Shown here: one piece after another, positions 21,108 through 64,000 of the stretch
Position numbering within the stretch: the first letter of the stretch is position 1
Layout: every line of letters begins with the position of its first letter
Assembly (NCBI GenBank): GCA_030950285.1
Contig: JAUZRR010000015.1
Location: 43,480-107,479, forward strand
Direction of reading: 5' to 3'
Length of the DNA stretch: 64,000 nucleotides
Source: Planctomycetota bacterium
GTDB taxonomy: Bacteria; Planctomycetota; Phycisphaerae; Phycisphaerales; UBA1924
Made by a program: the position numbers and the translations under genes
Notes under the pieces: model-generated
Told to the model about the DNA's origin: nothing
The model's database searches: none
The model's input: the letters and a program-made list of their open reading frames with translations, nothing else

Positions 21108-21186
21108 GCTGCGTCGGGTGGGAGACCACCCGGAGGAGTATCCAGAGCGTCCTGAGAGAGAACCCCTGAGAGACAGGAGATTGACC

Positions 21187-36546: not shown

Positions 36547-36593
36547 TGGCCAGAGTTGGCCGTTTTCGTGCATGCTGTGGCTCGGAGTGGCCA
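36547..36593. promoter_or_regulatory. Paired TGGC-N8-GCCA dyads upstream of the kinase/sigma-54 activator operon
   Basis: TGGCCAGAGTTGGCCG (36547-36562, one mismatch in the right arm) and TGGCTCGGAGTGGCCA (36578-36593) start exactly 31 bp apart, three helical turns. The same paired arrangement with the same 31-bp period occurs at 56094-56140. Tandem dyads of this kind are typical upstream sites for NtrC-type activators, and the operon that follows encodes one. Confidence 0.6.
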
Positions 36594-36640: not shown

Positions 36641-36669
36641 TTGACACGCGGGGCTCGAAGCACCACAAT
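36641..36669 (+). promoter_or_regulatory. Candidate sigma-70-type promoter of the pseudopilin-kinase-activator operon
   Basis: A perfect -35 TTGACA and the -10 CACAAT are separated by 17 bp, about 60 bp before the ATG at 36728. CACAAT is the same -10 variant seen before the PEP-CTERM gene and glnN. Confidence 0.55.
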
Positions 36670-37555: not shown

Positions 37556-39094
37556 ATGTCGCTTCACACTCGATTCTTGCTGCTGCTCGGCCTTCTCGGG
37601 GCGGCGGTCATTGCCAACATCGGGGTGACGGTCTGGACCGTCGGGCTGCTCGACCGCGAGCAGCGGCGGCCGGTCGAGCAGATCGGTTCGGCGCTGGGGG
37701 TGCTCAATGACACCAAACGCATCTTGTGGGACCAAGCCGGGGAGTTCGGGCTCTTTGTCATCCCCGGCAGGGTCGCCGAGGCAACGCCCGGCGAGGGCCG
37801 CACGTTCTCCCCGGAACGGGTGCGGAAGTTCCGCGTGCTCGGCGAGAAGGCACTGGAACGAATCTCGGATCTCGATGATATTGACGCCTCGCTGGTCCGC
37901 GCCGGGGTGAACACCGCGGCCAATCTCCGGTCCAGGATCACAAGAGTGAACTCCGGGTTCGAGACTTATCTCGACAACGGCGACGAAGCCACGTGGCAAA
38001 GCTCGCTGGGTGAGCTCTACACACTGCACGAGTTCATCGAACGGCTGGAAGCGAGGCTCATCCACGAAACCAGGCTCTCCGCAGCACACGGAGCACAGAT
38101 GCAGCAACGGCTGATGGCGACACTCATCAGCTCGATCGTCTCGGTCGTCATTGTCCTGCTCGCCGCGGCGTGGCTCTTCCGCCGGTGGGTGCTGGTCCGG
38201 GTCAGTCGCCTCGGTGTGGCGGCCGAACGCATCGGACGGGGCGAGTTCGACCACCGCGTCGAGGTGCAAGGCAACGACGAGCTGGACCGGGTCGGCCAGC
38301 AGATCAACGATATGACCCAGACCATCAAAACCATGCAGGCCGAGCGGATCGATCGCGAACGCCTGGCGGCGATCGGGGACATGGGGCGCCGGCTTGCGCA
38401 CAACATCCGCAACCCGCTCGGGGGCATCCGCTCGCTGGCCGAGCTCTCGACACTCGAGCTGGACGAGGCGAGCCCGGTCCGAGAACATCAGCAGCGGATT
38501 ATTCGAACGGTCGACCAGTTCACCCGCTGGTTACAGGACCTGCTCAGCGTGTCCAACCCGCTCGCGGTGAGCATCGCCGAGGTCGTGGTCGAGCCGTGGT
38601 TGACCGAGTTGGTCGAATCCCACCGGGCACTGGCCGAGTCACGCGGCATCACGCTGACGCTCGATACGGCCGACGCCCCGACGGCCGCCCCCTTCGACCG
38701 CGGGCACCTCGAGCACGTCGTCTCGGCGCTGATTACCAACGCGATCCAGGCGTGCAGCCGGGGGGGGGCGGTCCAAGTCAAGGCGGTCGCCGAATCGTCC
38801 GATTGGAGCTTGTCGGTCCTCGATGATGGGGCGGGAATCCAACCCGAACATTTGCAGAGTATGTTTGCGCCTTACTTTACCACCAAACCGGGCGGAACTG
38901 GCATTGGTCTTGCACAAGCAAAGAGAGTGGTGATGCAGCATGGCGGCCGAATATGGGCTGAAAACCGCGGCGAAAGCGGTTTGCCGGGCTTTGGAGCGGC
39001 ATTGCACGTCGAGTTGCCCTTGCGATCAAGGGCGAAAATGGCCATGACTGGCCAGAGCAATGAGGCGGACTGTGGCCAGAATACTCCTGCTTGA
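37556..39094 (+). CDS. Membrane sensor histidine kinase (NtrB-like transmitter)
   Basis: This 512-residue kinase has two membrane helices (about residues 7-29 and 187-208) around a helical sensor region of about 155 residues, then a HAMP domain (RVSRLGVAAERIGRGEFDHRV). The HisKA box AHNIRNPLGGIRSLAEL holds the phosphoacceptor His (about residue 281). The ATPase domain shows N-box ALITNAIQAC, G1 DDGAGIQPEH and G2 GGTGIGLAQAKRVV. The NP-L-GGI style of H-box is that of kinases that partner NtrC-type regulators, and such a regulator overlaps it by 23 bp. What it senses is unknown. The end of its gene contains TGGCCA dyads, the candidate sites of its partner. Confidence 0.92.
   Translation: MSLHTRFLLLLGLLGAAVIANIGVTVWTVGLLDREQRRPVEQIGSALGVLNDTKRILWDQAGEFGLFVIPGRVAEATPGEGRTFSPERVRKFRVLGEKALERISDLDDIDASLVRAGVNTAANLRSRITRVNSGFETYLDNGDEATWQSSLGELYTLHEFIERLEARLIHETRLSAAHGAQMQQRLMATLISSIVSVVIVLLAAAWLFRRWVLVRVSRLGVAAERIGRGEFDHRVEVQGNDELDRVGQQINDMTQTIKTMQAERIDRERLAAIGDMGRRLAHNIRNPLGGIRSLAELSTLELDEASPVREHQQRIIRTVDQFTRWLQDLLSVSNPLAVSIAEVVVEPWLTELVESHRALAESRGITLTLDTADAPTAAPFDRGHLEHVVSALITNAIQACSRGGAVQVKAVAESSDWSLSVLDDGAGIQPEHLQSMFAPYFTTKPGGTGIGLAQAKRVVMQHGGRIWAENRGESGLPGFGAALHVELPLRSRAKMAMTGQSNEADCGQNTPA
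39039..39078. promoter_or_regulatory. Internal TGGC-N8-GCCA dyad plus an extra half-site at the kinase/activator junction
   Basis: TGGCCATGACTGGCCA (39039-39054) is a full match to the dyad. A further TGGCCA follows at 39073-39078, 34 bp after the first rather than 31. The site lies inside the end of the kinase gene and the start of the activator gene, so chance or coding constraint is possible. If real it would let the activator bind near its own start. Confidence 0.35.
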
Positions 39095-40523
39095 AGACGA
39101 AGAGACGTTGCGTTTCAGCGTGAAACGTGCGCTGGAGCTGGACGGCCACGACGTCACCGAGTTTGAGAGCACAGACGCCGCACACGCCCACGTCGCCCGT
39201 ACTGAGGTTGACGCGGTCCTGACCGACGTGAATCTCGCGGACAACAGCGACGGGATCGAGTTTGCCAAAGACCTCCGAAGCCGCGGCTTTGACGGCCCGA
39301 TCGTCGTCATGACCGGGTACGCCTCGGTCGAACAGGCGGTCGCCGCGATGAAGCTCGGCGTCGACGATTACCTGCAAAAGCCGGTCGTCCTCGAAGAGGT
39401 CACCATGCTCATCGCCAGGCTCCTGGAGGCTCGCAAACTCCGCACCAGGATCACACTCTACGAACGCCTGGACAGAGCCCGCGCGGACCAGCAATCCGTG
39501 CTCGGCGAGAGTAAGGCGTGGCGCAAAACACTCGAACTCGCAGAGCGCCTGGCATCGCTCCCCATTCCCGAGCAGGTCGGACGCGGCGAGAGCCTGCCGA
39601 CCGTGCTGATCCTCGGCGAAACCGGCGTCGGCAAGGGCGTCCTCGCAAGATACATCCACGAGTGCGCGCAGCGGGGTGGAGCAACTTCCGAGACACCGCT
39701 CGTCCATGTCAACTGCACTGCGCTCCCGCCGACCCTCATCGAGTCAGAGTTGTTCGGCCATGAGAAAGGGGCGTTCACGGACGCCAAGACAGCCCGAAAG
39801 GGGCTGTTCGAGATCGCCGGCGACGGAACGATTTTCCTCGACGAGATCGGCGACATGCCGCTCGAGTTGCAAGCGAAGATATTGACGGTTGTCGAGGAAG
39901 GCCGGTACCGGCGGGTCGGCGGCACCAAAGAACATACCGTCCGCGCGCGGATCATCACCGCGACAAACGTGGACCTCGAAGAGAAGGTTCGCCAGGGGAG
40001 TTTCCGGGCGGACCTCTTCTATCGTCTCAACACATTCACCGTGAGCATCCCCCCGCTCAGGGAACGAGAGGGCGACGCGCTGCGTATCGCAACAGCGATG
40101 CTCGAACGGCTCGCCAGACAGTACGGACGCGATGAGCTGACGCTCTCCGAAGGGGCCGCCCGTTCGATTGCTGGCCACGACTGGCCGGGCAATGTCCGTG
40201 AACTTATCAACATCTTGCAACGGGCGGCGCTGCTCGCTCGGGATACCGAGATTTCCGCTTCCGATCTTGGGCTTGCCTCAGCCGGTGCGGGGCCCGGAGT
40301 CGTACCGGAGTCCGGGCAAGCCGGAGAAATACGATTCGACTTTGAATCCGGAGAATGCTCGGCAGAGAATGTCGAGCGAGAACTTATAGTGCAAGCGTTG
40401 CAGCACACCTTCGGCAACGTCTCGAAGGCGTCCAGATTGCTCGGCATGCAACGGAGCAGCCTGCGATACCGCATCGATCGGTTCGGGCTGGAAAGCATGG
40501 TCAAGGAGCTGGCAAGCAAATGA
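39072..40523 (+). CDS. NtrC-family response regulator, sigma-54-dependent activator
   Basis: From the GTG (MARILLLEDEE) it has 483 residues; an ATG at 39060 is an alternative. The receiver has Asp9, phospho-acceptor Asp52 (VLTDVNL), MTGYAS and the Lys in DDYLQKP. The AAA+ domain has Walker A LGETGVGKG, the sigma-54 contact loop ESELFGHEKGAFTDA, Walker B GTIFLDEIGDMPL, FRADLFYRLNTF and GHDWPGNVREL. The C-terminus is a Fis-type helix-turn-helix (VSKASRLLGMQRSSLRYRI). It should activate sigma-54 promoters after phosphorylation by the adjacent kinase. Likely targets here are the sigma-54 promoters at 54828 and 56016. The stop overlaps the next ATG by three bases within ATGA. Confidence 0.95.
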   Translation: MARILLLEDEETLRFSVKRALELDGHDVTEFESTDAAHAHVARTEVDAVLTDVNLADNSDGIEFAKDLRSRGFDGPIVVMTGYASVEQAVAAMKLGVDDYLQKPVVLEEVTMLIARLLEARKLRTRITLYERLDRARADQQSVLGESKAWRKTLELAERLASLPIPEQVGRGESLPTVLILGETGVGKGVLARYIHECAQRGGATSETPLVHVNCTALPPTLIESELFGHEKGAFTDAKTARKGLFEIAGDGTIFLDEIGDMPLELQAKILTVVEEGRYRRVGGTKEHTVRARIITATNVDLEEKVRQGSFRADLFYRLNTFTVSIPPLREREGDALRIATAMLERLARQYGRDELTLSEGAARSIAGHDWPGNVRELINILQRAALLARDTEISASDLGLASAGAGPGVVPESGQAGEIRFDFESGECSAENVERELIVQALQHTFGNVSKASRLLGMQRSSLRYRIDRFGLESMVKELASK

Positions 40524-45700: not shown

Positions 45701-47866
45701 CTATGGATGGGAGGCCGTCGCCTGAGGCTTCTGCGCCCCCCACTCCTGCTTGTATTTCTCCGCCAGCGCTGCCACGGGCCGAGAGATCTGTGCAACTCCT
45801 CTTTCGTATCCCAACTCCGCCAGCGTGTCGCCAGCAATCGCCTCGAACATCTCGATCGACTCGTCGGGCATCTGCGTCCGCCAGTCCCGCAACCCCGGCG
45901 TCGGAGCCAGCCACGAGGCATTGGCCGATCGACCGGTTGCCGGTTCGCTCCGCCCCTGATAAAACGCTGCCATGCCCGCGTCGGGTGCAAGACCAAGGTA
46001 CTGACATATCTCGGCACACTGCCCGCTTGGATCAGCGACCAACTGTTCGTACCGATACTCGCGATACACGTGATCTCCAAGCTTACGGCCGTCCTCTATC
46101 CCGGATCGAACATGCCAGCGCCACCACACAGCGGTAGCCGCGACGGGGTCGATCTCCCACAGCCGATGGCGGCCCGCCGCTCGCCGGGCCTTCGGCCACG
46201 TGAGCATCGAAAGACACACATCACGGCCGTCGCGGATCAGGTGAATCACACGCGACGCCGGGCATATCTTGTGCAACCTGGAAAGATTCCGCAGGTAACC
46301 TCCGGTCGACTTGTCACCAACGTGTGCCTTCGCTCTCTCTCGCCGGTACAGGTCATACACAAGACGAACAAAGGTTGCATAATCGGTTGGTTGGCTCGCC
46401 AGCAACTTTTCAAGACATTCTCGCTCTGGAGCCATTCTTACAAAGCGCCGGTCCGCGTACAGCCTGTCCAGCATGTCCGCACCGACAATGCCCCGCCGCG
46501 AGACATCCCTCCGCCGCTTCCCGTACTTGGTGATCCAGTGCGTCTCGTGCGCCATCGCCAAGTCCCGGTGGGCATCCAGCATCCGCTCAAGCATTGTTGT
46601 TCCTGAACGCGGGCAGCCAACAACAAACACCAAAGGGCACGCGGCTTGATCAGACGCCGGACGCTGTTGGGCAACAGCGCGAGACGAAGCAACATTGATG
46701 ACGGGTTGCTGCACTTCCTTCTCGATACAGGGTGCCGTTCCGATCGTTGTGAGAATCCTGCGGGCCAGCCCCGACCACTTCGGCCAGAACGCATAGAGCA
46801 CCGCGAGCCGCAGCCGGGTCGCATCGAGGTAAGCCGCGATTCGTGCTGCGTCCTCGCGGACCCGCTCATTCCCATACGCGTGAAGGAACGCACGCGCCCC
46901 GCCCATTGCTGCATCTGCGTTGCAGAATCCCTGCAAGCATCGGAGTTCCAGGTGCCCCAGCATGTTGGCGACATCGAGCGCGGGCTCGCCGGCTGCAAGC
47001 GTGTCAAAGTCCAGAATACCAACGCGGCCGGTGGGGCCGATCACGATCTGCTTGTCGTAGAAATCACGGTGAACAACGGTCTCTCGGCCCGGCGTCTCTC
47101 GCAATGCATCAAACACGCTAAGCGCCGCTGAGGACAACGCCTCGCTCAACTCCGGGAGAAATGCCCGAGCGCAGGAGAGCCTCTCCTCCAACATGCCAAT
47201 CTCGGCACCCGCGTCGTGAACATCCATCCACGCCGGCGGCTTCTGGTGCATCACTCGCAACGCCCGCCCCGCTTCAGCACACGCCGAGACAAGAGCAGCA
47301 TCGCTACTCGCCGGAATATCAGCCATGCAGGTACCCTGCAACTCGCGGGTGAGCAGCACGCCCGACTCCTCATCGGCATCCTCAATCACTGCGATATCAA
47401 ACGCCCGATTGTTCATGCGCTCCATGAGCCCGTACAATTTCATAATCTTCCCGAGCCGGGATGGACGCAACACCTTCGCGAAGTGCGCCACGCCGTTGCC
47501 TTGCAACCTTATAACCGCACGCCGACCCGGACGGTGCGATACAAGGGACGCGTCAGGCCGCTGCAGCAACTGCTCCAAGGCAGGGAGTTTGGGATCCGCC
47601 CCATTCGGTTGGAGAGCAAGAAGGACGCCCCCTGACCGAACCAACAGCCCGCCGACGCTCTCGAGCTTCTGCCCGAGCTTCTGTGTTTCCTTCTCGTCGG
47701 CGTACCACATCGCGGGCACGGATATCCCCGCAGCATCCGTATACTGCATCGCCAGCGACGACTCGTGCCGCGGCCAAACTCTGCGCAGATGCAACGGGCT
47801 GTCTAGTCCGTGCGCCACGGCTTCGGCCGCGGGCAGCACCACTTTGGAGGGCAGCGGGCTACACAT
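45701..47866 (-). CDS. Fusion of an aminoglycoside-phosphotransferase-fold kinase and a sulfotransferase
   Basis: GGAG seven bases upstream and an 8-nt overlap with the preceding gene (ATGTGTAG) support MCSPLPSK as the start (721 residues). Residues about 1-390 form an APH/choline-kinase fold: VVHRDFYDKQIVI (catalytic Asp, about 268) and VGILDFDTLAAGEPALDVA (metal Asp). Residues about 411-700 are a P-loop sulfotransferase: 5'-phosphosulfate loop VVGCPRSGTTMLERML (about 415-430) and the 3'-phosphate motif RVIHLIRDGRDVCLS. The two catalytic cores look intact. One protein could thus add phosphate and sulfate to the same carbohydrate or lipid-linked precursor. This architecture is unfamiliar to me. 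Confidence 0.88.
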   Translation of the reverse strand: MCSPLPSKVVLPAAEAVAHGLDSPLHLRRVWPRHESSLAMQYTDAAGISVPAMWYADEKETQKLGQKLESVGGLLVRSGGVLLALQPNGADPKLPALEQLLQRPDASLVSHRPGRRAVIRLQGNGVAHFAKVLRPSRLGKIMKLYGLMERMNNRAFDIAVIEDADEESGVLLTRELQGTCMADIPASSDAALVSACAEAGRALRVMHQKPPAWMDVHDAGAEIGMLEERLSCARAFLPELSEALSSAALSVFDALRETPGRETVVHRDFYDKQIVIGPTGRVGILDFDTLAAGEPALDVANMLGHLELRCLQGFCNADAAMGGARAFLHAYGNERVREDAARIAAYLDATRLRLAVLYAFWPKWSGLARRILTTIGTAPCIEKEVQQPVINVASSRAVAQQRPASDQAACPLVFVVGCPRSGTTMLERMLDAHRDLAMAHETHWITKYGKRRRDVSRRGIVGADMLDRLYADRRFVRMAPERECLEKLLASQPTDYATFVRLVYDLYRRERAKAHVGDKSTGGYLRNLSRLHKICPASRVIHLIRDGRDVCLSMLTWPKARRAAGRHRLWEIDPVAATAVWWRWHVRSGIEDGRKLGDHVYREYRYEQLVADPSGQCAEICQYLGLAPDAGMAAFYQGRSEPATGRSANASWLAPTPGLRDWRTQMPDESIEMFEAIAGDTLAELGYERGVAQISRPVAALAEKYKQEWGAQKPQATASHP

Positions 47867-49154
47867 CGAGAGTCTCCGTCTGCATGACTCGATCGGCATG
47901 ATCTAACAACGCCGCCACGCGAGCGGGCCACGCCTTGACCCGCAAGCGGAACGGCTCCGGCGCTCTCATAAGAAGCGCTCCTGCAGTGAATACTCGCACC
48001 CCAACGGGATCCTCAAACCCCATCGCCCGCCAGTACGCCGCGGCGAGCTCGTTCGCGATGGCAGTCGCCCGAACGAACGGCACCCGGCCTTCCGTCGCAA
48101 GCGCGAGCAATCCGGCAGCGAAGGAACCAATGTCCATGCTTGGGTTGCCGTAGGCGGCACGATCAAAGTCCAACACCGTAACACCATCGCTGTGTACAAC
48201 AACCTGGTCCGCGGAAAAATCACCGTGCACAACCTGCGACCGCCAGTTCAACTCGAGCACCGCACCCTGCACCGTGTCGCGCAGCTCTGCAGCCCGAACG
48301 CCGAGATCCGGATCGACCGCGGCAACCGCATCGCATGCCGCCGCCACACCACGGCAATAGTCGCTCGCCGAGTACATCGCGTTCAGTCGCGGACGTTGCC
48401 GGTGCAGAGTCGCAAGGGCGCCAGCGACATGCTCGAGCAATGGACCCGGATCATCATTGCCGCAGAGCATGTCCTCGAGTAGCTGCCCGTCGACCCACCG
48501 GTGCGCCAGCGCACTATACCGTTTCGAGTCCCCGACCACTCGCGGCACGCGGAGATCGCCCTGATCCTTGAACGCCCACGCCCGCTGTCGAATGTCCTCG
48601 TACTGCGCCTCGGGATACAACCGGAGTACAACCGCCTCGCCATTCCCGTTTTCGAGCTTTCCAACAAAGCGGCGTTCGGGCTTGTATCGAAGTGTTGTCG
48701 CCAAAACGCCGTGCAGATGGGGGCTGGCCGGGAGAATCCGCCGCATCCGAGGCGGCGTCCGCTCGCCCTCATACAACTTTCGAAGAGATCTAATCTCGTA
48801 ATCGTTCGGATACGCAAAGATGGCAATGCCGTCTTCTGGAACTGTGTGCAACCCGGCACCCAACGCACCTCGCACCTCCATCTTCAGACGAGCGTTGGCG
48901 ACCTTGACTATCTGATCCTCCGCGTGACACCTCGCATACACCCCTGTGTGGGTGTCGCCAACCTGCACAGAGTACGCGACGAGGCAGCTCTTGTGCGGCT
49001 TATATCGCACATAACGTGCCTGCACCGACCGAATATCGTGTTCCGGACACAACACCCGCAGTGTCGCGAGAAATGCATCCTCGTCGAGCAGGGTCGCGAG
49101 CCCCCGCAACCCGGCATCGTGCCGGACAAGATTGGTATCGGCTTTCCTAAGCAT
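47859..49154 (-). CDS. Aminoglycoside-phosphotransferase-fold kinase of unknown substrate
   Basis: The ATG at 49154 overlaps the ABC transporter stop by eight bases, the pattern seen elsewhere in this operon, giving 431 residues (MLRKADTNLVRH). The kinase fold is clear in the C-terminal half: SQVVHGDFSADQVVV with the catalytic Asp, and VTVLDFDRAAYGNPSMDIGSFAAG with the Mg-binding Asp. The N-terminal lobe contains YKPHKSCLVAY and RYKPERRFVGKLE. It resembles the kinase half of the following fusion gene, so the two may have arisen by duplication. In this context a sugar, glycerol or amino-alcohol substrate in glycan assembly is more likely than an antibiotic. Confidence 0.85.
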   Translation of the reverse strand: MLRKADTNLVRHDAGLRGLATLLDEDAFLATLRVLCPEHDIRSVQARYVRYKPHKSCLVAYSVQVGDTHTGVYARCHAEDQIVKVANARLKMEVRGALGAGLHTVPEDGIAIFAYPNDYEIRSLRKLYEGERTPPRMRRILPASPHLHGVLATTLRYKPERRFVGKLENGNGEAVVLRLYPEAQYEDIRQRAWAFKDQGDLRVPRVVGDSKRYSALAHRWVDGQLLEDMLCGNDDPGPLLEHVAGALATLHRQRPRLNAMYSASDYCRGVAAACDAVAAVDPDLGVRAAELRDTVQGAVLELNWRSQVVHGDFSADQVVVHSDGVTVLDFDRAAYGNPSMDIGSFAAGLLALATEGRVPFVRATAIANELAAAYWRAMGFEDPVGVRVFTAGALLMRAPEPFRLRVKAWPARVAALLDHADRVMQTETLDV

Positions 49155-50979
49155 CGATGCTCTCATACTCCGCGGACTCGTCCGAATGCAGATTGTGAAC
49201 CCGGGCATACGCGCCATTTGCAGCAAGGAGCGCCGCGTGGCTTCCACGCTCTACGATCTCGCCGCCGGCCATATACACAATCTGGTCGGCGTTCGTGACC
49301 GCACGAAGATCATGCGTGATAATGAAACAGACCCGATTCTTGGAGAGACCCCGGACCGCCATCCCGATCATCTCCGCGCTCTCACGATCCAGGCTCGCCG
49401 TGGGTTCATCGAGCACGATGATCGGCGCATTACGAACAACCGCTCGCGCGATCGCGATGCGCTGACGCTGACCCTGGCTCAGCGTGCAGCCGCGCTCACC
49501 GACCGGTGTGTCGTAGCCGCCTGGAAGGGCACTGATAAACTCATGAGCACACGCGACAGTCGCGGCCTCGACGATCTGCTCATCAGTTATGTCCTTTCTT
49601 CCGAAGGTAATATTTTCCCCGATGCTCGCGGCAAAGAGCGTTGATTCCTGCGGCACCACCGCAACCCGGCTCCTCCACGATGCCACCCGGAACTCACGAA
49701 TATCCATCCCGTCTGCCGTAATACGACCGTCTACCGGGTCGTAGAGCCGGAGGAGAAGACTCATCAGCGTGGACTTCCCAGCCCCGGAGGGACCCACGAT
49801 TGCGACGACCGCGCCGGCGCGCGCTTCGAGCGTGAGATTACTGATCGCAAGCTTGCCCGGCTCATACGCAAACCGAACGTTCTCAAACGCGACCCGAGCA
49901 ATCTGCGTCGGTGCGTCCACGGCGTGTGGGACGTCCTCGATCGCGGGTGCGGTGTCGAGAAGCTCCACGATCCGCTCGGCCGACGCGAGCGCTTTGGCGG
50001 TCCGGCCCGAGTACTTCGCCACATTCCGGATCGGCCGGGTCATGTTCTTGTGGTAGAAAAAGAACACCAGCAACGTAGTAACCTGCAGTTCACCCTGCAT
50101 CACGAGGCGAGCGCCGTACCACAGCATGATCGCGGTGCCCAACGCGATGAACACATCGGCCGCACCGAGAAGCTGAGCCGAGAGCCGCTTGCCCTTCACA
50201 CCCTCCTTGAGGCTCGACATGTTGCGGGCACCAAACCGGGTGTTGTGGGTATCCTCGCCACCGAGCGACTGCACGACCCCGATCGAGCCGATGGCTTCGG
50301 TCGCGATTGCTCCCATCTCGCCGTGGCGTTCACGTTCTCGCCGGGCGGTAGATCGGATTTTCTTCCCGATCCGCTGCGTCGAGAACCAGAACAAAGGTAA
50401 CACCGCAAACGCGACAAGCGCGAGGCGCCACTCGATGAACAGCATCACTACCGCGACACCAACTACCGTCAGCAGATGCGCCACCAGCGGCAGGACCGCA
50501 GTTGACACAACCTCCTGCAGGCGACCGATGTCGCTGGTCAGCCTGGTAGCGATATCGCCCGCCCGGCGCCGATTATAAAATGAAAGCGACAGCCGTTGGA
50601 TATGCGCGAAGAGATCCGCACGAACGTCGGTAAGGACAAGGTTGCCTGCGAGCGCAAATCCGACCCGCCGCATGTACGCCGCCCCCGCCCGGGCCGCGAC
50701 GATCAGGACCAGTGCAATCGCACACACCGTCAGCACCGTCATCGGCGCCAACCTGTCAAGCACCGGCACGCCTGTTGTTGATGCGCCGGTCTTGTGCAGC
50801 GCCGCGTCAAAGATAAACTTCAACGGCCAGGGCTCGAGCAGCCGCAGGGCGATCTCCGCGAACATTGCAAACGAGGACCCGCCGATGATCTTCCAACGCG
50901 TTCGCATATAAGGAAAGAACCGTCTCACCACAGCGGCCGCGGGGATATGCTCTTTGTCGCTGTTCTCGTCCTGTGTCAT
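49147..50979 (-). CDS. ABC exporter, fused membrane and ATPase domains (MsbA/type I half-transporter)
   Basis: The 610 residues start at ATG 50979, overlapping the glycosyltransferase stop by ATGA. Six membrane helices (about residues 30-330) precede an ATPase domain with Walker A IVGPSGAGKST (about 395-405), Q-loop VVPQESTLFAASIGENI, signature LSQGQRQRIAIARA, Walker B IIVLDEPTASLD and switch His in FIITHDLR. It would work as a homodimer, flipping a lipid-linked glycan or exporting a product of the neighbouring glycosyltransferases and sulfotransferases; that assignment is from context only. Confidence 0.92.
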   Translation of the reverse strand: MTQDENSDKEHIPAAAVVRRFFPYMRTRWKIIGGSSFAMFAEIALRLLEPWPLKFIFDAALHKTGASTTGVPVLDRLAPMTVLTVCAIALVLIVAARAGAAYMRRVGFALAGNLVLTDVRADLFAHIQRLSLSFYNRRRAGDIATRLTSDIGRLQEVVSTAVLPLVAHLLTVVGVAVVMLFIEWRLALVAFAVLPLFWFSTQRIGKKIRSTARRERERHGEMGAIATEAIGSIGVVQSLGGEDTHNTRFGARNMSSLKEGVKGKRLSAQLLGAADVFIALGTAIMLWYGARLVMQGELQVTTLLVFFFYHKNMTRPIRNVAKYSGRTAKALASAERIVELLDTAPAIEDVPHAVDAPTQIARVAFENVRFAYEPGKLAISNLTLEARAGAVVAIVGPSGAGKSTLMSLLLRLYDPVDGRITADGMDIREFRVASWRSRVAVVPQESTLFAASIGENITFGRKDITDEQIVEAATVACAHEFISALPGGYDTPVGERGCTLSQGQRQRIAIARAVVRNAPIIVLDEPTASLDRESAEMIGMAVRGLSKNRVCFIITHDLRAVTNADQIVYMAGGEIVERGSHAALLAANGAYARVHNLHSDESAEYESIDA

Positions 50980-52139
50980 ACCGCAGCCCCCCCGCGATTC
51001 GTCGCCCGCGCGAGGATGCTCTCGGCAACGAGTTCCCACTTGTGTTCCTGCTCTGCCGTCTGTCGCGCCCGCTCGCCGAGTCGTTCACGCAGCGCGGCGT
51101 TTGTCGCAAGCCGACGCAACGCGGCGCACAGCCCGTCAACGTCATCCGGCTCGAACAGCACCCCGGTCTTGCCGTCGAGAATAACCTCCTGAACCTGCCC
51201 GCATGCGCTCGCCACGATCGCCAGGCCCGCCGCCATATATTCAAAGAGCTTGAGCGGCGAAAAGTAGAACGACTCAAGCCGCGGATAGGGCGCGACCGCG
51301 ATATCCATCGAAGCCAAAAGCCCCGGCACACGATCCGGCGTCACCGACCCGGCCAGCACAACCGCCGCGGCCGCCTCTTTACAATCTTCCTCAATGCGCT
51401 CGAGCATCGGCCCGTCACCAACAATGAGTAACCGTACCGGCAGCCCCTCTTTCCAGAGACGAAGAAACGCCGCAACCAGCCGCTCCACCCCGTGCCAGGG
51501 CCGCAGCGATCCGACAAACCCGATGGTCACAATGCCCGCGTCTGCGGGGAGTTCCTTTGCAACATGCGATCCGAACCGTGCTGTATCCACACCGTTTGGC
51601 ACAGCGTGAACTCGCTCGGGGCACGCGACCCGGTCGCGGAGCCACGCCGCGAGTGGCGCCGAGACCGCCAGCAACGATCCGGCGCTGTCCCAACACCGCT
51701 GCGCAGCTGCTTCTGCTTCCTCGACCATGTGCAGTTTTCGGTATCGGGCTTGCTCGTCAACCAACGGCGCATTCACCTCGAGCACGCCCGGCAGGCCCGC
51801 GCTCGCCGCGTACTCCATCGCGGCATACGACCACAGCGCGTGCCGCTCGTACACCATGTCCAACTCGGGCTCAGCCGCCAGCGCGTCCCGGAGCGCGACG
51901 TTGGCATCAAGCAGAAACCGCTCACGTTCCTGGGTCTGTCCGCTCGGCGCCCGGTCGAGCCGGCGCAGTGCGACTGACTCGAGCCCGCGCGGGGTATCTC
52001 CTCCAACACGCCGCGCAAACAGCACAACCTCGACGCCCTTGGCAATCAGCGCACGCAGCACCTCCTGGACGTGGATCGACCCGCCCTTGCTCCCGTACAC
52101 GGGCACGCCGGGATCGGTACAGACGTACGCCAGCCGCAT
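50976..52139 (-). CDS. Glycosyltransferase family 4 protein
   Basis: The 387 residues from MRLAYVCTDPGVPVYGSKGGSIHV show the GT-B fold. The N-terminal Rossmann domain ends near PNGVDTARFG, and the donor domain contains IGFVGSLRPWHGVERLV, LLIVGDGPMLERIEE and the family 4 motif SPLKLFEYMAAGLAIVAS with EX7-like region (about residues 280-300). A retaining transfer from a nucleotide sugar is expected. The ATG shares one base with the previous stop (TGATG); a GTG three bases earlier would give a GTGA overlap. It is the third gene of the leftward operon. Confidence 0.9.
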   Translation of the reverse strand: MRLAYVCTDPGVPVYGSKGGSIHVQEVLRALIAKGVEVVLFARRVGGDTPRGLESVALRRLDRAPSGQTQERERFLLDANVALRDALAAEPELDMVYERHALWSYAAMEYAASAGLPGVLEVNAPLVDEQARYRKLHMVEEAEAAAQRCWDSAGSLLAVSAPLAAWLRDRVACPERVHAVPNGVDTARFGSHVAKELPADAGIVTIGFVGSLRPWHGVERLVAAFLRLWKEGLPVRLLIVGDGPMLERIEEDCKEAAAAVVLAGSVTPDRVPGLLASMDIAVAPYPRLESFYFSPLKLFEYMAAGLAIVASACGQVQEVILDGKTGVLFEPDDVDGLCAALRRLATNAALRERLGERARQTAEQEHKWELVAESILARATNRGGAAV

Positions 52140-53347
52140 CACACCACCCCCGTCACGCCCGCGGCCCGGAAAACCTCGCGGATCTGCACCGTGTTCCGCG
52201 TGAGATCAAACGAATCCTCGATCAACACCCGCGCCTGCTTTGCGAATCCTGCCGCCAGCGCCGGGGCATCGAGCACCCGCCCAAGAGCGCCGGCAAGAGC
52301 CTGCGGGTCCCGCTCGGGAACAAGCAACCCGGTCTCCCCGTCGCGCACCACCTCCGGTATCCCCGTCACCGGCGTCGACACACAGGGCGTCCCCAATGCC
52401 ATCGCTTCGAGCAGCACCGTCGGCAGCCCGTCGCGGTTGCCATCGTTGCCGACGACGCACGGTGCGGCAAACACTGCCGCGTCTGTTATCAGCGATATAA
52501 CATCCTCTCGCGACAGTGCGCCGGCGAGCTCGACACAGTCCCCAAGATCGAGCTCCCCACGCAATGTCGCGAGCGAATCCGCCTCTTCACCGTCGCCCAC
52601 GATCACACAACGAAACTCACGGCCGGCGTCTCGCATCAAAGCGCAAGCTCGCAAAAGATCGTCAAACCCCTTCTTCTCGACAAGCCGTCCCACGCCGAGG
52701 ATAAGGCCAGCAGTGCGCGGCCGATCGCAAAACGGAAAGCACCCAAGATCGAGCCCGTTGTACACCTTGTGCACCGGGCACGCATCAGCCCCCAGCACCC
52801 CCGCCAGATGCCTGACATTGAAATCGCTCACCGTCACAAGCCCGGCCGCGTCGCGAGCCATGCGGCACAGCCTTGCCTGGTCCACCGACTCGTGAAAGAT
52901 GTCCTTTGCGTGAGCTGTGAACGTGTACCGCACCCCCGCCTGCGCCGCAGCCAGCCGCGCCGTCACCGTGGCTTCGGTCGCAAAGTGAGCGTGCAGATGC
53001 GTGATTCCCCGCTCGCGTACCGCCTGGGCGACTTGCCCGGCAAGCCACAACGACCACGGACGCTTCGCGTCCCGATAGTTGAAAACTCGCTCTTCCGGAT
53101 CAAGAAACATCTCGGCGTCGCGCATCGCCCTTGCGAACGCGTGAAGCTCAACAGGCTCCTCGGTCAGGTACGTCACGCGAGCCTTCACACGCGAAACATC
53201 GGCGTGCTGCGGCCCGGACTCGGCGGGCCGAAGCGAAAAAATCTCAACCTCGAGACCCGCAGCCTCGTGCGCCAGGATCTCGTTCAGAATGAACGTCTCC
53301 GACAAACGCGGATATCTCTTGAGCACATAGCCCACACGGTCAGACAT
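52139..53347 (-). CDS. Glycosyltransferase family 4 protein (colanic-acid-type)
   Basis: Start MSDRVGYVLKRYPRLSETFILNEI is the standard opening of WcaL/AmsK-like glycosyltransferases, and its ATG overlaps the preceding stop by eight bases, so the 26-residue extension in the track is dropped. The 402 residues include HLHAHFATEATVTARL, YTFTAHAKDIF, KVYNGLDLGCFPF, ILGVGRLVEKKGFDDLL, CVIVGDGEEADSL and the donor-binding GLPTVLLEAMALGTPCVSTPVTGIPE. It probably adds a hexose to the glycan built by this operon. Confidence 0.92.
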   Translation of the reverse strand: MSDRVGYVLKRYPRLSETFILNEILAHEAAGLEVEIFSLRPAESGPQHADVSRVKARVTYLTEEPVELHAFARAMRDAEMFLDPEERVFNYRDAKRPWSLWLAGQVAQAVRERGITHLHAHFATEATVTARLAAAQAGVRYTFTAHAKDIFHESVDQARLCRMARDAAGLVTVSDFNVRHLAGVLGADACPVHKVYNGLDLGCFPFCDRPRTAGLILGVGRLVEKKGFDDLLRACALMRDAGREFRCVIVGDGEEADSLATLRGELDLGDCVELAGALSREDVISLITDAAVFAAPCVVGNDGNRDGLPTVLLEAMALGTPCVSTPVTGIPEVVRDGETGLLVPERDPQALAGALGRVLDAPALAAGFAKQARVLIEDSFDLTRNTVQIREVFRAAGVTGVV

Positions 53348-54665
53348 GCCGAGCACCCTTCCCGTTCCGGACCACGATTCCCGGGAACTCGGACGAATCG
53401 CCACGACCCGCACGCAGCTCGTCAAGCAGGCTCGGGAGCCGGCTCAGGCCGCGGAAATCGAGCACCGTTTCTGCCGGACGCACAGGCGCATCCCCGCTGC
53501 ACATCCACGCCGAAAGCGAATCACCGTCGAGCTGATCGGGATGCAGCATGTCAAGCAAGCCCAACTCGGCGAACCGCTCGGCACGGATGATCTGCTCACG
53601 CCGAGGTGTCACCCGAGGCACGATCAACGCCCGCTTCTGCAACGCGAGCACCTCGCACACCGAGTTGTACCCGCCCATGCTGATCACACGATCGGCACAG
53701 CACAAAAGCGGCTCGGGATCGGTCACAAACTCGATCAGCCGCATATCGGGGCGGTTCGCAACCATCGCGTTGAGCAACGCCCGGTCTTCGCCGTCCATCA
53801 ACGGCCCCGTCACAAGCACGCCCCCGCTCCCCGCGGGGAGCTCGGACTGCAAGAAACTCAGCGCCAAAGGCAACCCGTCACGCCCGCCACCGATCGAGCA
53901 CAGCGTCAGCGAGCCGCCCGGGACATCCATGATCTCCGAGAGCGACGGCGACTGCTGCGGCCGAGAACACGAAGCGCTCACCGCCTCGTCCCTCGGGTTC
54001 AGATACCCCGTGTAACGGATCTTGGCCGCGATGTCGGCCGGGATCGAATACTCCTCTTCGATCGCGTACACGTCCCGGTCGCCGTACACCCAGACCCGGT
54101 CGTAATACTCGCGGATCACCCCGATCGTGTTGTCGCGAGCCCACTCACGCCGAACGGTTTCCGGCTCATCAAGAATGTCGCGGATACCCACCACCAGCCG
54201 CGCCCGCGTGTGCTTCTTCAGCCACGCCAGCGACGGCGCCAACTCGCCCAGCACGCCCAGCGGGAGTTTGTCAACAATGAGCACGTCGGGCCGGTACGAC
54301 CGGATCGCGCTGAGAATCAGATCGCTCCGCAACGAGATCAAATCGTCGGTCTCGATGCCCAGCGAACGGGTTTCGTACTTCCCCGCCGCGTCCTTGCCGA
54401 GCGACGGCAGCGTCACACAATCGACACCCTCGGGCAATCCAAACGTCGCCGTCTCGCGCAGCCCCGAAAGCAAAAGGATGCTCGGCGCCGGCTCGATCGC
54501 AGACAACGATCGGCTGATCAGCAGATTGCGACGCAGGTGCCCAAGCCCCTGCGCATCGTGCGAATAGAACGCGATCCGCAGCGGAGAAGAGCCCCGCGAT
54601 CCCTCGCCGTTCAGCGACTCGGCGAGATCAAGCCCGCGAACAAGTTCATCCTCAAAGAACATCAT
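53340..54665 (-). CDS. MurG/GT28-like predicted glycosyltransferase
   Basis: The 441-residue protein has an N-terminal GT-B half beginning RIAFYSHDAQGLGHLRRNLLISRSL, a pattern shared with predicted glycosyltransferases of the MurG-like superfamily. The C-terminal half has LTLCSIGGGRDGLPLALSFL, GVLVTGPLMDGEDR and the donor loop ADRVISMGGYNSVCEVLALQKRALIVPRV. The YTGYLNPRDEAV link between halves is typical. It is the first gene of the leftward operon. A sigma-54 promoter at 54828 and a dyad at 54884 precede it. The leader of about 150 nt contains a perfect 16-bp palindrome ending 17 bases before the ATG. Confidence 0.85.
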   Translation of the reverse strand: MMFFEDELVRGLDLAESLNGEGSRGSSPLRIAFYSHDAQGLGHLRRNLLISRSLSAIEPAPSILLLSGLRETATFGLPEGVDCVTLPSLGKDAAGKYETRSLGIETDDLISLRSDLILSAIRSYRPDVLIVDKLPLGVLGELAPSLAWLKKHTRARLVVGIRDILDEPETVRREWARDNTIGVIREYYDRVWVYGDRDVYAIEEEYSIPADIAAKIRYTGYLNPRDEAVSASCSRPQQSPSLSEIMDVPGGSLTLCSIGGGRDGLPLALSFLQSELPAGSGGVLVTGPLMDGEDRALLNAMVANRPDMRLIEFVTDPEPLLCCADRVISMGGYNSVCEVLALQKRALIVPRVTPRREQIIRAERFAELGLLDMLHPDQLDGDSLSAWMCSGDAPVRPAETVLDFRGLSRLPSLLDELRAGRGDSSEFPGIVVRNGKGARHV

Positions 54666-54681
54666 GGGAAATCACCCGAGA

Positions 54682-54703
54682 GCCAAGACGTCTTGGCCTG
54701 TAC
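54682..54703. promoter_or_regulatory. Perfect palindrome in the leader of the MurG-like gene
   Basis: GCCAAGACGTCTTGGC (54682-54697) is a perfect 16-bp palindrome just before the ribosome-binding region. Overlapping it, TCTTGGCCTGTAC (54691-54703) is repeated exactly at 54881-54893, 190 bp away, where it forms half of the activator dyad. It may be an operator or a hairpin that affects translation. Confidence 0.4.
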
Positions 54704-54827
54704 ATATGGATTGACGACAGCGTGAGAGAGAACCCCGCACACCTACAACAAGCCCCGCTCGGGAGAACCCCGCCGGCCTGAAACACTGCAAAAACTTGTC
54801 ACAGTCCTGACACATACTTCACGAGAC

Positions 54828-54844
54828 TGCAACATTGATGCCAG
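54828..54844 (-). promoter_or_regulatory. Sigma-54 promoter of the leftward glycan/kinase/sulfotransferase operon
   Basis: Leftward sequence CTGGCATCAATGTTGCA matches the -24/-12 consensus (YTGGCAC..N..TTGCW) with GG and GC separated by exactly 10 bases. Predicted transcription starts near 54817, about 150 bp before the first ATG. A TGGC-N8-GCCA dyad is centred 50 bp upstream of the GG. Confidence 0.75.
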
Positions 54845-54883
54845 CACAGAAATGTGCCTTTACGACCCTTTGCAGGGGCCTCT

Positions 54884-54899
54884 TGGCCTGTACTGGCCA
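54884..54899. promoter_or_regulatory. TGGC-N8-GCCA dyad upstream of the operon promoter
   Basis: TGGCCTGTACTGGCCA is a full match to the dyad found in pairs at 36547 and 56094. I see no second full dyad 31 bp either side, so this copy is single. Confidence 0.55.
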
Positions 54900-54934
54900 C
54901 CCGAGCGGTGGTTGGAAGCCAGGTCCCCGAAACG

Positions 54935-55918
54935 TCAGCTCCCGTCCTCACCCACCTCGCGGCTCCACCACGCTTCACACGCCGCCGCGACCTCGGAAAC
55001 CTCCGCCGAGATCGAATCGCAACTCGGCGGATACCCCATATCGGCAAGCTCCTTGCCCGCGAGAGCCTCGAAAAGCTCACGCTCCCGCGCCGACATCTGC
55101 GTCCGCCAGTCGCGCACGCCCCGAGTCGGAGGCAGCCACGCCGCCTTGGCGCTCAGCCCGGGCTCGTGGCGGGTACGCCCCTGGTGGTATTCCAGCATCG
55201 CCGCGTCGAACGGCAACCCGAGAAACTCGGCCATCTCCCGCAACGATGCCTCCGGGTCCTCCACCAGCCGCTCGTAGTTGAACTCACGGTACCTGTCCGT
55301 CGGCAACGCCCGCCCCTGCGCGCACCCGAGCCGAATATCCCGCCTCCACCACAGCGCCCCGATCGCGATCGGCTCCTCTTTCCACAGCTCCAGCTTCGCC
55401 GCCCCCTTGCCCCAGTCCTTGATCGACAACGCCACATCCCGACCGTCACGCACCAGGTGCACAAACCGCGCCCAAGGCAACAACGCGTGCAGCCGTTCCA
55501 GATGACGGCAGTACCCCGGGCTCTTCTCCCCGGCCAGCGGTTTGTCCTGCGATGCCGCCAGCTCGTCGTACACCGCCGAGACAAACTCGCTGTAACGCCC
55601 CCCGCGCTCCACCGCCCGCGCGACCGCCGCGTCGGAAAGCCCCAGCCGCGAAAACCGCGGGTGTGTACACGCCGTTTCGATGACTTTCTGCGACAGCGGC
55701 GGGTCAAACCCCACCGGCTCACCCTTGATCGCCCGCGTGATAAACAGCGAGTCGTACGCGCACGTCAGCGACGGGTGCGCATCGAGCATCCGCTGCAACA
55801 TCGTCGTCCCCGAACGCTGGCACCCCACCACAAACATGTACGGGTTGTGCCGCCCCGCCTTCCCCCGAGGGGCCGCGCCATGGTCCGAGAAAGATTCAGC
55901 TACCGCCTCGGATTTCAA
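54935..55918 (-). CDS. Sulfotransferase
   Basis: The 327-residue cytoplasmic protein has the PAPS-binding P-loop FVVGCQRSGTTMLQRML (about residues 29-45) and the 3'-phosphate motif RFVHLVRDGRDVALSI (about 152-167), then the conserved WWRRDIRLG and YREFNYERLVEDP segments. It closely resembles the C-terminal half of the fusion at 45701 (both end ...TRGVRDWRTQM), so the two are paralogues. It likely sulfates a glycan. It has its own sigma-54 promoter (56016) with paired activator dyads, and 269 bp separate it from the next gene. Confidence 0.92.
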   Translation of the reverse strand: MKSEAVAESFSDHGAAPRGKAGRHNPYMFVVGCQRSGTTMLQRMLDAHPSLTCAYDSLFITRAIKGEPVGFDPPLSQKVIETACTHPRFSRLGLSDAAVARAVERGGRYSEFVSAVYDELAASQDKPLAGEKSPGYCRHLERLHALLPWARFVHLVRDGRDVALSIKDWGKGAAKLELWKEEPIAIGALWWRRDIRLGCAQGRALPTDRYREFNYERLVEDPEASLREMAEFLGLPFDAAMLEYHQGRTRHEPGLSAKAAWLPPTRGVRDWRTQMSARERELFEALAGKELADMGYPPSCDSISAEVSEVAAACEAWWSREVGEDGS

Positions 55919-56015
55919 CGCACTTCTCCCTCAGCAAAGACAAAGGGCACCCGAAGAACCACGGGGGCTCAGACACCGGATCGCGCTCCGCACACAACGA
56001 TCGCCCTCTCCACCA

Positions 56016-56032
56016 TGCAATCGCCGTGCCGA
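56016..56032 (-). promoter_or_regulatory. Sigma-54 promoter of the sulfotransferase gene
   Basis: Leftward TCGGCACGGCGATTGCA matches YTGGCACGRNNNTTGCW at every fixed position but one (C for T before GG), with GG-N10-GC spacing. Start of transcription would be near 56005, about 87 bp before the ATG. Two dyads are centred 72 and 103 bp upstream of the GG, within the usual range for enhancer-binding activators. Confidence 0.8.
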
Positions 56033-56093
56033 GGCCCTTCACCCGCGGGGAGAATCCTTAAGCACAGCTGCCGCAAGGCCCGTCCCTGTCGTG

Positions 56094-56140
56094 TGGCTCT
56101 CTCTGGCCACTGCACACGCCACCCTGGCGAGTTCTGGCCA
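56094..56140. promoter_or_regulatory. Paired TGGC-N8-GCCA activator sites, 31 bp apart
   Basis: TGGCTCTCTCTGGCCA (56094-56109) and TGGCGAGTTCTGGCCA (56125-56140) both match the dyad fully. Their 31-bp period is identical to the pair in front of the two-component operon at 36547-36593, 19.5 kb away. Confidence 0.72.
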
Positions 56141-56175
56141 GATCGCCCCGCATCATTGTGCTCGTTGTCCTGGTG

Positions 56176-56300
56176 GTTGGTGTCCCCTCGCTCGCGCGAG
56201 GGGCTCTAAAATAAGATAGGGAATCGCGGGATCATGAGAGCCCAGGAGAGCCCAGAGATGTGTGGTAGAGCCCCTCGCGCAAGCGAGGGGACAAGGCAAC
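56176..56300. repeat. REPIN-like element (copy 3)
   Basis: GTTGGTGTCCCCTCGCTCGCGCGAGGGGCTC (56176-56206) and GAGCCCCTCGCGCAAGCGAGGGGACAAGGCAAC (56268-56300) are inverted copies with 61 bp between them. The right unit has a G-to-A change in its loop. The outer GGCAAC matches copy 1, which defines the ends of the element. Confidence 0.85.
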
Positions 56301-56387
56301 ACCCGCAAAGATGGTAAAGCTCAACAAAGACCCCTCAACCATAAAGCACGATTCCGCACGATGCGCTATGCCGCTATCAAGAAGGAA

Positions 56388-57821
56388 TCAGAGCCCCGGC
56401 AACGGCCCGGTCGAATCGCCAAAGCTCGCCACGTCGCACCCCATCCGCTCGAGCAGCGCCACGTACAGATCACACATCGGCGTCTCCTTCGGGTAGTGCA
56501 GCAGCCGCCCGGTGTGCATCGTCCCGCCGCCGCCCCCCGCCAGCACGATCGGCAGGTTCTCGTGGTTGTGGATGTTCCCGTCACTGATCCCGCTGCCGTG
56601 CATGATGATGCAGTTGTCCAGCAGCGAGCCCCGCCCCTCGGGCGTCGCGGCCATGCGTTCGAGAAACGCCGCGAACCGCTCGACATAGAACCGGTCGATC
56701 CGGCGGATCTTCTCGACCATCCCCTCGTTGTGCTGGTGGTGCGAAAGCTCGTGGTGCCCCTCGCTCACACCGATCTCCGCAAGCGAACGGTTGCTGCCCC
56801 CGACCCCCACCATAAACGTCGCGATCCGCGTCGAGTCGGTCTGGAACGCCAGCAGCATCATGTCGTACATCAGGTCGATGTGCTCGCTGAGCTTCCGCGG
56901 GATCCCAACCGGCGCGTCATAGTCGGGCAACGGCTCGTCGCCGGTCTCGGTCATCGCGTGCTGAATCCTTCGCTCGATCTCGCGGACCGAGGTCTGAAAC
57001 TCGTCGAGCTTCTGCCGATCGGCCACACCGAGTCGGCGCTCCAGCCGTTCGGCATCCGTCGAAACATAATCGAGCACGCTCGACCGCCGCCGCATCCGGT
57101 CCCGCCGCTCGGCCTTGCCCGTCGCGTCGCCGAACAACCGCTCGAAGACCACCGCCGGATCGACCGACTTGGGCACCGGCGTGTTCTCGTCCCGCCACGC
57201 GACATTGGACGTGTACGCGCACGAATACCCCGAGTCGCAGTTGCCCGCCGGGCGGCTGTTCTCACACCCGATCTCAAGCGACGGCAGCCGGGTCTGGTGC
57301 CCGATCTGTTGGGCGGCAAACTGGTCAACACTCACCCCGAGATTGATATCGTTCCCCGAGGTCTTGCGCGCCTGCCGCCCGGTCAGAAAGGTCGCCGACG
57401 AACGGGCGTGGTCGCCCGGCCCGTCGCCGTTTGAGCGGGCTTTGTCGAGCGTCAGCCCGGTCACGATGTTGATGTGCTTGCGCACGCGCTCCAAGGGCGA
57501 GAGCGTGGGTGAGAGCCGAAAGTCCCGCCCCTCGCCCTCAGGAAGCCAGTGCGGATAGTTCACGCCGTTGGGCGTAAAGATGAACGCCGTACGCAGAGGA
57601 GCTGCGCCCGCCTCTCCAGACGCCCCGAGCACGCCCCCCGCCGCCCGCGCCACCGACGACACGCCCCCCATCGCTTCAAGCCAGGGCAACGCCATCGACA
57701 CCCCAAGCCCGCGCAGCACAGCACGCCGCGAGATCCCCCCGGCCCGCCCGGTCACAAAGTGTGCCGCGGGTGCCGGGTTCGACTTCGACGGGTTTCCCTT
57801 CGATGTGTTCGATTTTTTCAT
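56388..57821 (-). CDS. DUF1552 family protein with Tat-like signal
   Basis: The ATG shares one base with the stop of the upstream DUF1592 gene (TGATG), which fixes the start at MKKSNTSKG (477 residues). A twin-arginine-like signal SRRAVLRGLGVSMALPWLEAM lies at about residues 31-51. The DUF1552 body includes FIFTPNGVNYPHWLPEG, GLTLDKARSNGDGPGDHARSSATFLTG, SLEIGCE and VGVGGSNRSLAEIGVSEGHHELSHHQHN. The family is abundant in planctomycetes, exported, and always linked to its DUF1592 partner; biochemical function is unknown, although secreted polymer breakdown is often suspected. Confidence 0.93.
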   Translation of the reverse strand: MKKSNTSKGNPSKSNPAPAAHFVTGRAGGISRRAVLRGLGVSMALPWLEAMGGVSSVARAAGGVLGASGEAGAAPLRTAFIFTPNGVNYPHWLPEGEGRDFRLSPTLSPLERVRKHINIVTGLTLDKARSNGDGPGDHARSSATFLTGRQARKTSGNDINLGVSVDQFAAQQIGHQTRLPSLEIGCENSRPAGNCDSGYSCAYTSNVAWRDENTPVPKSVDPAVVFERLFGDATGKAERRDRMRRRSSVLDYVSTDAERLERRLGVADRQKLDEFQTSVREIERRIQHAMTETGDEPLPDYDAPVGIPRKLSEHIDLMYDMMLLAFQTDSTRIATFMVGVGGSNRSLAEIGVSEGHHELSHHQHNEGMVEKIRRIDRFYVERFAAFLERMAATPEGRGSLLDNCIIMHGSGISDGNIHNHENLPIVLAGGGGGTMHTGRLLHYPKETPMCDLYVALLERMGCDVASFGDSTGPLPGL

Positions 57822-63464: not shown

Positions 63465-63600
63465 GCGCACGGTCGTGTTGCATGGCTTCACGACGACCGT
63501 ACAGCCGCGCACGGTCGTGTTGCATGGCTTCACGACGACCGTACAGCCGCGCGCAGTCGTGTTGCATGGCTTCACAACCACCGTACAGCCGCGCACGACG
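63465..63600. repeat. Tandem repeat: three 42-bp units plus a partial fourth, each able to form a hairpin
   Basis: Units at 63465-63506, 63507-63548 and 63549-63590 read GCGCACGGTCGTGTTGCATG onward, with the third diverged, and ten bases of a fourth follow. Inside each of the first two, ACGGTCGT and ACGACCGT form an 8-bp stem. The array lies between convergent genes and runs into the last codons of the right-edge gene. There are no spacers, so it is not a CRISPR array. Confidence 0.85.
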
Positions 63601-64000
63601 GCCTGTAGGCGGCCGGGAACGCCCCTCGGGCACGCTCCTGGGGCTCTTGGACGTGCTCCCGGTCCTCCCGGCCGCACTCCGGGCAGGGCACGCCGCCCGG
63701 CACCCCCGCCAGGTCGTACCGGCACCCCGGACACTGCCCCTCCCGCACCCGCCGGTGCCACCGCCACCAGTCCAGCCCGCCCAGCACCAGCAGCCCGGCC
63801 GCGACCACCATCCCCACGTTGAGCAGCAGCCCCGGCCAGATAGGCCGCAACGGCACCTCCCAGCTCCCAAGCCGGACAAAGCCGGGCGAGGAGGTCGCGC
63901 CGCTGGGCGTCAGCATCGAGTTGACGCCCCGGTCCACCATGCCGTTGTAGAGACGGTCCCCCGAGAAGCTGCGGAACGGGAAGCCGACGCCGAGGCGGGT
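63572..64000 (-). CDS. C-terminal part of a membrane protein with a zinc ribbon (cut by the window edge)
   Basis: The frame is open to the right edge and beyond the ATG listed in the track, so the gene starts outside the window. The visible 142 residues read TRLGVGFPFRSFSGDRLYNG..., then a membrane helix (LRPIWPGLLLNVGMVVAAGLLVLGGLDWW) and a C-terminal zinc ribbon CPGCRYDLAGVPGGVPCPECG. This helix-plus-ribbon ending is frequent in Phycisphaerae proteins of unknown function. The last eight residues or so are encoded by the 42-bp repeat, so the original C-terminus may have been altered. Confidence 0.75.
   Translation of the reverse strand, partial: TRLGVGFPFRSFSGDRLYNGMVDRGVNSMLTPSGATSSPGFVRLGSWEVPLRPIWPGLLLNVGMVVAAGLLVLGGLDWWRWHRRVREGQCPGCRYDLAGVPGGVPCPECGREDREHVQEPQERARGAFPAAYRPSCAAVRWL

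Follow-up and report, generated by a model that had tools for sequence, protein, structure and literature searches.

Positions 56016-56140 are read as a predicted sigma-54 promoter and two activator sites upstream of it, located before a sulfotransferase gene and supported by comparative evidence. The window is the whole analysed stretch of DNA, 64 kb in length. An enhancer-binding geometry of this kind had been proposed in an earlier note; the proposal is supported by the same type of dyad beside the gene of an NtrC-family activator in six genomes, by the dyad and sigma-54 layout that recurs in four genomes ahead of orthologous genes for secreted proteins, and by the single rpoN. The sensor kinase and response regulator encoded at 37556-39094 and 39060-40523 quite probably activate a surface-matrix regulon through sigma-54; this pair, a second promoter of the kind in the cluster and the wider regulon go beyond the earlier note. 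The explanation is built on sequence comparison, which yielded the sites, their statistics, their conservation, their linkage and the one rpoN; phosphorylation, binding, activation and a sulfated product are inferred from these.

Promoter, activator dyads and gene cluster

Features of the window are collected in Table 1. The core is situated on the leftward strand, as the earlier note had stated: the minus strand from 56032 to 56016 is TCGGCACGGCGATTGCA, with GG, ten bases and GC, and the core from 56031 to 56016 differs from the consensus by one mismatch. Both dyads are complete TGGC-N8-GCCA sites with starts 31 bp apart, again as described before. They precede the 56031 core by 78 and 109 bp, which is within looping distance; the figures of 72 and 103 bp given earlier are borne out as distances from dyad centre to GG. 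The predicted transcription start is near 56005 and would give an 87-nt leader to the TTG at 55918. This TTG start is preceded by GAGGGAGA. Between the sulfotransferase TTG and an upstream gene, presumably DUF1552-like, that ends at 56388 there are 469 bp of intergenic DNA.

Table 1. Positions and characteristics of the features in the window
Feature	Position	Strand	Characteristics
Exosortase, EpsH family with DUF3485	6282-8093	+	TIGR02602 107.1 bits, above cut-off of 105.55; PF09721; in the polysaccharide locus of the contig
Large TPR protein, PrsT-like	8148-12731	+	TIGR02917 212.8 bits, below cut-off of 312.2
Dyad TGGCCAGAGTTGGCCG	36547-36562	.	Upstream of pseudopilin, kinase and regulator genes
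Dyad TGGCTCGGAGTGGCCA	36578-36593	.	31 bp from the TGGCCAGAGTTGGCCG dyad
Sigma-70-like promoter TTGACA-N17-CACAAT	36641-36669	+	Follows the tandem dyads; G001 has similar hexamers
Sensor histidine kinase	37556-39094	+	HAMP, HisKA, HATPase
Conserved dyad TGGCCATGACTGGCCA	39039-39054	.	Shortly before the regulator gene; equivalent position occupied in five relatives
NtrC-family response regulator / sigma-54 activator, proposed activator	39060-40523	+	Receiver PF00072, AAA+ PF00158, Fis-type HTH PF02954
APH phosphotransferase-sulfotransferase fusion	45701-47899	-	Sulfotransferase part 42% identical to the 54935-55918 sulfotransferase
APH-family phosphotransferase	47859-49247	-	PF01636
ABC transporter, membrane and ATPase parts fused	49147-51039	-	PF00664, PF00005
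Glycosyltransferase (group 1)	50976-52142	-	PF13692/PF00534
Glycosyltransferase (group 1)	52139-53425	-	PF00534
Glycosyltransferase, GT28 C-terminal-domain-like	53340-54665	-	PF04101, E = 1.3e-5; behind second promoter
Second sigma-54 promoter core TGGCATCAATGTTGCA (predicted)	54828-54843	-	Precedes the 53340-54665 glycosyltransferase gene
Dyad TGGCCTGTACTGGCCA of second promoter (putative)	54884-54899	.	
Sulfotransferase, 327 aa, TTG start	54935-55918	-	First gene of the cluster; PF13469, E = 1.7e-34
Sigma-54 promoter core CGGCACGGCGATTGCA (predicted)	56016-56031	-	-26 to -11; GG-N10-GC; one mismatch to TGGCACGNNNNTTGCW / TGGCACG-N4-TTGCW
Alternative sigma-54-like match AGGGACGGGCCTTGCG	56072-56087	-	Less canonical -24 element; between dyads and 56031 core
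Proximal dyad TGGCTCTCTCTGGCCA (putative)	56094-56109	.	Exact TGGC-N8-GCCA
Distal dyad TGGCGAGTTCTGGCCA (putative)	56125-56140	.	Exact TGGC-N8-GCCA; top-scoring dyad of the window, model trained outside the window

The genes behind the second promoter overlap one another and so look like one transcription unit. A polysaccharide role of the cluster is supported by the PF13469 match and the glycosyltransferase neighbours; its product is likely to be a surface polysaccharide carrying sulfate groups, together with matrix proteins. Among the relatives searched, no close ortholog of the sulfotransferase was found outside its own genome, the best full-length matches being 32-34% identical. The promoter is therefore judged by its likeness to footprinted promoters, not by a footprint of its own.

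Several further structures are present in the cluster and the genome. The APH-sulfotransferase fusion gene adjoins the second, unfused APH gene of the cluster. Palindromic repeats of the form CCCCTCGC..GCGAGGGG, resembling REP/BIME elements, are dispersed in the window at 22041, 22090, 28779, 28865, 56184 and 56271. They occur as close intergenic pairs with members 49 to 87 bp apart, one pair being located just upstream of the 56094 and 56125 dyads. Short in-frame tandem DNA repeats with translations of the VVLHGFTTTVQPRT or RRCNIVLRRCATGL type occupy two distinct loci in this genome, at approximately 63500-63650 of the window and approximately 1900-2280 of L053.

Frequency of the motifs and trained-model scores

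The 56031 core is alone in the 64-kb window in having no more than one mismatch to the sigma-54 consensus. The genome (3.1 Mb) has 22 sites of this quality and 40 matches of the reversed control pattern, and the 56031 site alone is for this reason weak evidence. TGGC-N8-GCCA occurs eight times in the window versus 1.7 expected, a count reached in 0 of 100 shuffles. Genome-wide it has 70 matches versus 147 for the control, hence no general enrichment. Whether or not GG-N10-GC is required as well, the loose pattern is no more frequent in the genome than control patterns, so that such counts cannot define a regulon; many of the matches look like coding sequence. Perfect tandem dyads occur at about control frequency across 150 family genomes, the informative cases being the window itself and the regulator operon of the congener G001.

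Motif models were trained only with sites outside the window, namely four sigma-54 cores and 12 dyads (five next to regulator orthologs, five upstream of FG-GAP genes, two ahead of the G001 regulator operon). The genome background was a 360 kb sample of the same genome, G000, a 62-contig assembly. The four top window dyads are 56125 (first in the 64 kb), 39039, 36547 and 54884; of these, 39039 and 36547 have orthologs among the training sites, unlike 56125 and 54884. The top composites of the window are 54843 (30.3), 56087 (29.5) and 56031 (29.35). The best composite in 150 simulated 64-kb windows scores 27.3, and in the 360 kb sample composites do not exceed 21.5 and all dyads stay below 16. 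The combination of dyad and sigma-54 site at the sulfotransferase is far beyond chance. The earlier description of this site as the best-formed regulatory site in the window does not hold, the 54843/54884 module scoring slightly higher (30.3 vs 29.35).

That the whole arrangement is a random succession of motifs in GC-rich intergenic DNA is scarcely credible. Taken singly, loose dyads and sigma-54 matches are as frequent in the genome as chance would have it, but the score of the arrangement was reached in 0 of 150 simulated windows and nowhere in the 360 kb of genome, with a model trained outside the window, and two modules are present in one cluster. It is very unlikely that the true core is instead the nearer AGGGACGGGCCTTGCG at 56087-56072, with a start near 56061. 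This match has a near-equal model score (29.5 vs 29.35) and is 53 bp from the distal dyad, but its -24 element is devoid of the usual C after GG and its start is some 6 bp from the proximal dyad, nearer than is usual for an activator that works by looping; the 56031 site resembles TGGCACG/TTGCA far more closely and is retained as the predicted core.

Regulator, self-sites and secreted-protein targets

The loop of the 39060-40523 regulator is GAFTDA, not GAFTGA, and is the same in orthologs of all but one of 13 relatives examined. GAFTDA is listed among GAFTGA variants expected to keep activity (PMC4641369). The genome contains one copy of rpoN (contig C38, PF04552, E = 7.9e-57). In a public genome scan with the regulator mostly distant paralogs were recovered, the best named match being from an uncultured Phycisphaerales bacterium (54%).

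At the regulator gene the motif sharpens from TGGC-N8-GCCA to TGGCCA-N4-TGGCCA, which starts 21-39 bp before the gene in G000, G001, G003, G009 (one mismatch), G011 and G022. The dyad has the same kinase-gene phase in five of the six genomes, and a conserved kinase tail could therefore partly explain it. In G003 it follows the kinase stop codon, with TAG directly before CTGGCCACAATTGGCCAG, which points there to conserved DNA and not to the kinase tail. A regulator-start dyad is absent from the genomes with regulator orthologs of 46-57% identity (G014, G017, G026, G027, G031, G035, G004, G039). The recognition-helix region of these orthologs is mostly MNRSS rather than MQRSS; G017 breaks the rule. 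The association of MNRSS, in place of MQRSS, with dyad absence in more distant orthologs is suggestive. A perfect sigma-54 core, TGGCACGGCCATTGCA, is located near the regulator ortholog of G027 (L110, 2697, minus strand), which has no TGGCCA dyad; sites upstream of this core may show a diverged motif of the more distant regulator orthologs.

Ahead of the regulator operon, tandem dyads occupy the same place in the window and in the congener G001, where they are 30 bp apart. Together with the dyad at the regulator start they form the signature expected of a regulator that would bind its own control region. TGGCACGATATCGCTGC near 36608 was rejected as a sigma-54 site of this operon, its spacing being wrong (N9 or N12); the sigma-70-like promoter, conserved with G001, fits the operon better. 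A dyad-like match at 40172 was likewise discarded as conserved coding sequence of the regulator (GHDWPGN).

The secreted FG-GAP/dockerin protein of G001, recognized by Pfam, has orthologs in G000 (contig C9), G003 and G009. In all four genomes the gene is preceded by a near-perfect sigma-54 core (TGGCACACAACTTGCA, TGGCACGGGCCTTGCA, TGGCACAGGTGTTGCA or TGGCACGCGCGCTGCA), and a TGGCC-type dyad is located approximately 65-100 bp upstream of the core in four of four cases. In G003 this dyad is GGGCCAGTGGTGGCCC and departs from the full motif at two positions. The FG-GAP/dockerin gene is within approximately 2 kb of the regulator gene in G001 and G009. Modules of sigma-54 core and dyad are also present before a large LEPR/FG-GAP-like protein (G000, contig C28), a dockerin-like protein (G009, C26) and a large protein whose N-terminus resembles a signal peptide (G022, C54). 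For the modules in G011 (C75) and G022 (C55) no clear downstream gene was found within the range examined. Candidates of similar score outside the regulator locus mostly lead to secreted-type proteins.

About ten regulators of the same broad type as the 39060-40523 protein are encoded in the genome, and the assignment of the activator consequently rests on linkage and self-sites. It is possible, though unlikely, that the sigma-54 promoter and its enhancers are served by another sigma-54 activator of the genome and that the window regulator shares or borrows the motif. The roughly ten homologous matches and an assignment by linkage only are consistent with such an arrangement; however, six genomes have the motif beside the gene of the 39060-40523 regulator, two have it in tandem ahead of the regulator operon, and in two an FG-GAP target is close to the regulator gene. 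That the dyads are operators over an ordinary sigma-70 promoter, the GG-N10-GC match being accidental, is highly improbable. Taken by itself, the sigma-54 site is no commoner in the genome than chance predicts, and the regulator's own operon combines dyads with a conserved sigma-70-like promoter, but no sigma-70-like promoter was found in 54600-56400, and a sigma-54 site comes after a dyad of this type upstream of orthologous genes of four genomes and at two places in the cluster. Activation through sigma-54 by the window regulator is the preferred reading.

Relation to known systems and proposed regulon

In Proteobacteria an activator motif, sometimes repeated, is located about 63 nt before the -24/-12 site of PEP-CTERM genes; it is tied to PrsK, PrsR and PrsT, was found only in Proteobacteria, and TTTACA is mentioned in it (Haft 2006; PMC1569441). 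The present system is similar in having a two-component NtrC-type regulator, an upstream activator motif that is sometimes repeated, secreted matrix-protein targets, and an exosortase and a TPR protein in a nearby polysaccharide locus. It differs from the PEP-CTERM system in its motif, TGGCCA-N4-TGGCCA, and in its targets, which are dockerin/FG-GAP proteins and a sulfotransferase/glycosyltransferase cluster. The regulator scores 329.9 bits with the PrsR model TIGR02915 and the kinase 68.9 bits with the PrsK model TIGR02916, below the cut-offs of 502.6 and 300 bits, respectively. Because regulator, kinase and TPR protein are below their cut-offs, the motif of Haft was found only in Proteobacteria and the targets differ, the regulator is not assigned to the PrsR family. 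Judged by sequence, the system is filed as a sigma-54/two-component surface regulon that resembles the PEP-CTERM regulon but would be outside the PrsR family.

A secreted protein encoded at 21055-21969 (+) ends in ...VIPTPGAFALLGLGGIAAIRRRR, a PEP-CTERM-like sorting tail, and is a candidate substrate of the 6282-8093 exosortase. None of the exact TGGC-N8-GCCA dyads of the window is located near its gene.

The RpoN-dependent pepA gene of Aquincola tertiaricarbonis has a mapped -24/-12 promoter, TGGCAC/CTGCTT, with a predicted enhancer upstream (PMC9850573), and shares with the present system a -24/-12 promoter and upstream enhancer before a secreted matrix-protein gene. Unlike here, the organism is a Proteobacterium, the protein is of the PEP-CTERM type, and the exopolysaccharide genes are apparently not controlled by RpoN (PMC9850573). 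In the available portions of two surveys, sigma-54 is generally linked to the bacterial exterior, including surface polysaccharide and envelope genes (PMC3162934), and sigma-54 regulons are followed in different phyla, Planctomycetota among them (PMC12316311); what is shared with the present system is sigma-54 control of surface polysaccharide and envelope genes. In those portions of PMC3162934 and PMC12316311 no sulfotransferase was found, and the regulator, motif and FG-GAP/dockerin targets are not described. The Synechocystis system XssS/XssR/XssQ controls the sulfated polysaccharide synechan and, as far as the available text extends, is similar in its two-component control of sulfotransferase and glycosyltransferase genes within one polysaccharide cluster (PMC8205485). 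It differs in acting through the STAND activator XssQ, and no description of a sigma-54 role was found in the same text (PMC8205485).

The following course of regulation is proposed. The stimulated kinase would phosphorylate the NtrC-type regulator, which would then assemble cooperatively on TGGCCA-N4-TGGCCA-like dyads. Tandem dyads are about three helical turns apart and hence on the same DNA face. The dyad-bound regulator would loop to RNA polymerase-sigma-54 at -24/-12 and open the promoter. Predicted targets are the sulfotransferase gene, via the 56031 promoter; the glycosyltransferase, ABC-transporter and phosphotransferase-sulfotransferase genes, via the second promoter; and large secreted FG-GAP/dockerin surface proteins elsewhere in the genome. 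The regulator probably controls its own operon as well, using the tandem dyads that accompany the sigma-70-type promoter together with the dyad at the start of the regulator gene.

The chances appear evenly balanced that Phycisphaerales-like planctomycetes possess a sigma-54 regulon for which no description was found in the papers retrieved. In it, a two-component system outside PrsK/PrsR, using a TGGCCA-N4-TGGCCA code, would co-control sulfation and assembly of surface polysaccharide and secreted FG-GAP/dockerin matrix proteins, as a counterpart of the PEP-CTERM regulon with a recruited sulfotransferase cluster. If so, a poorly studied phylum would gain a concrete cell-surface signal pathway with sensor, activator, DNA motif and targets named. 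Sigma-54 control of matrix proteins and polysaccharide in the style of Proteobacterial PEP-CTERM systems would then have a planctomycete counterpart, distinguished by its motif and by a sulfotransferase cluster as target.
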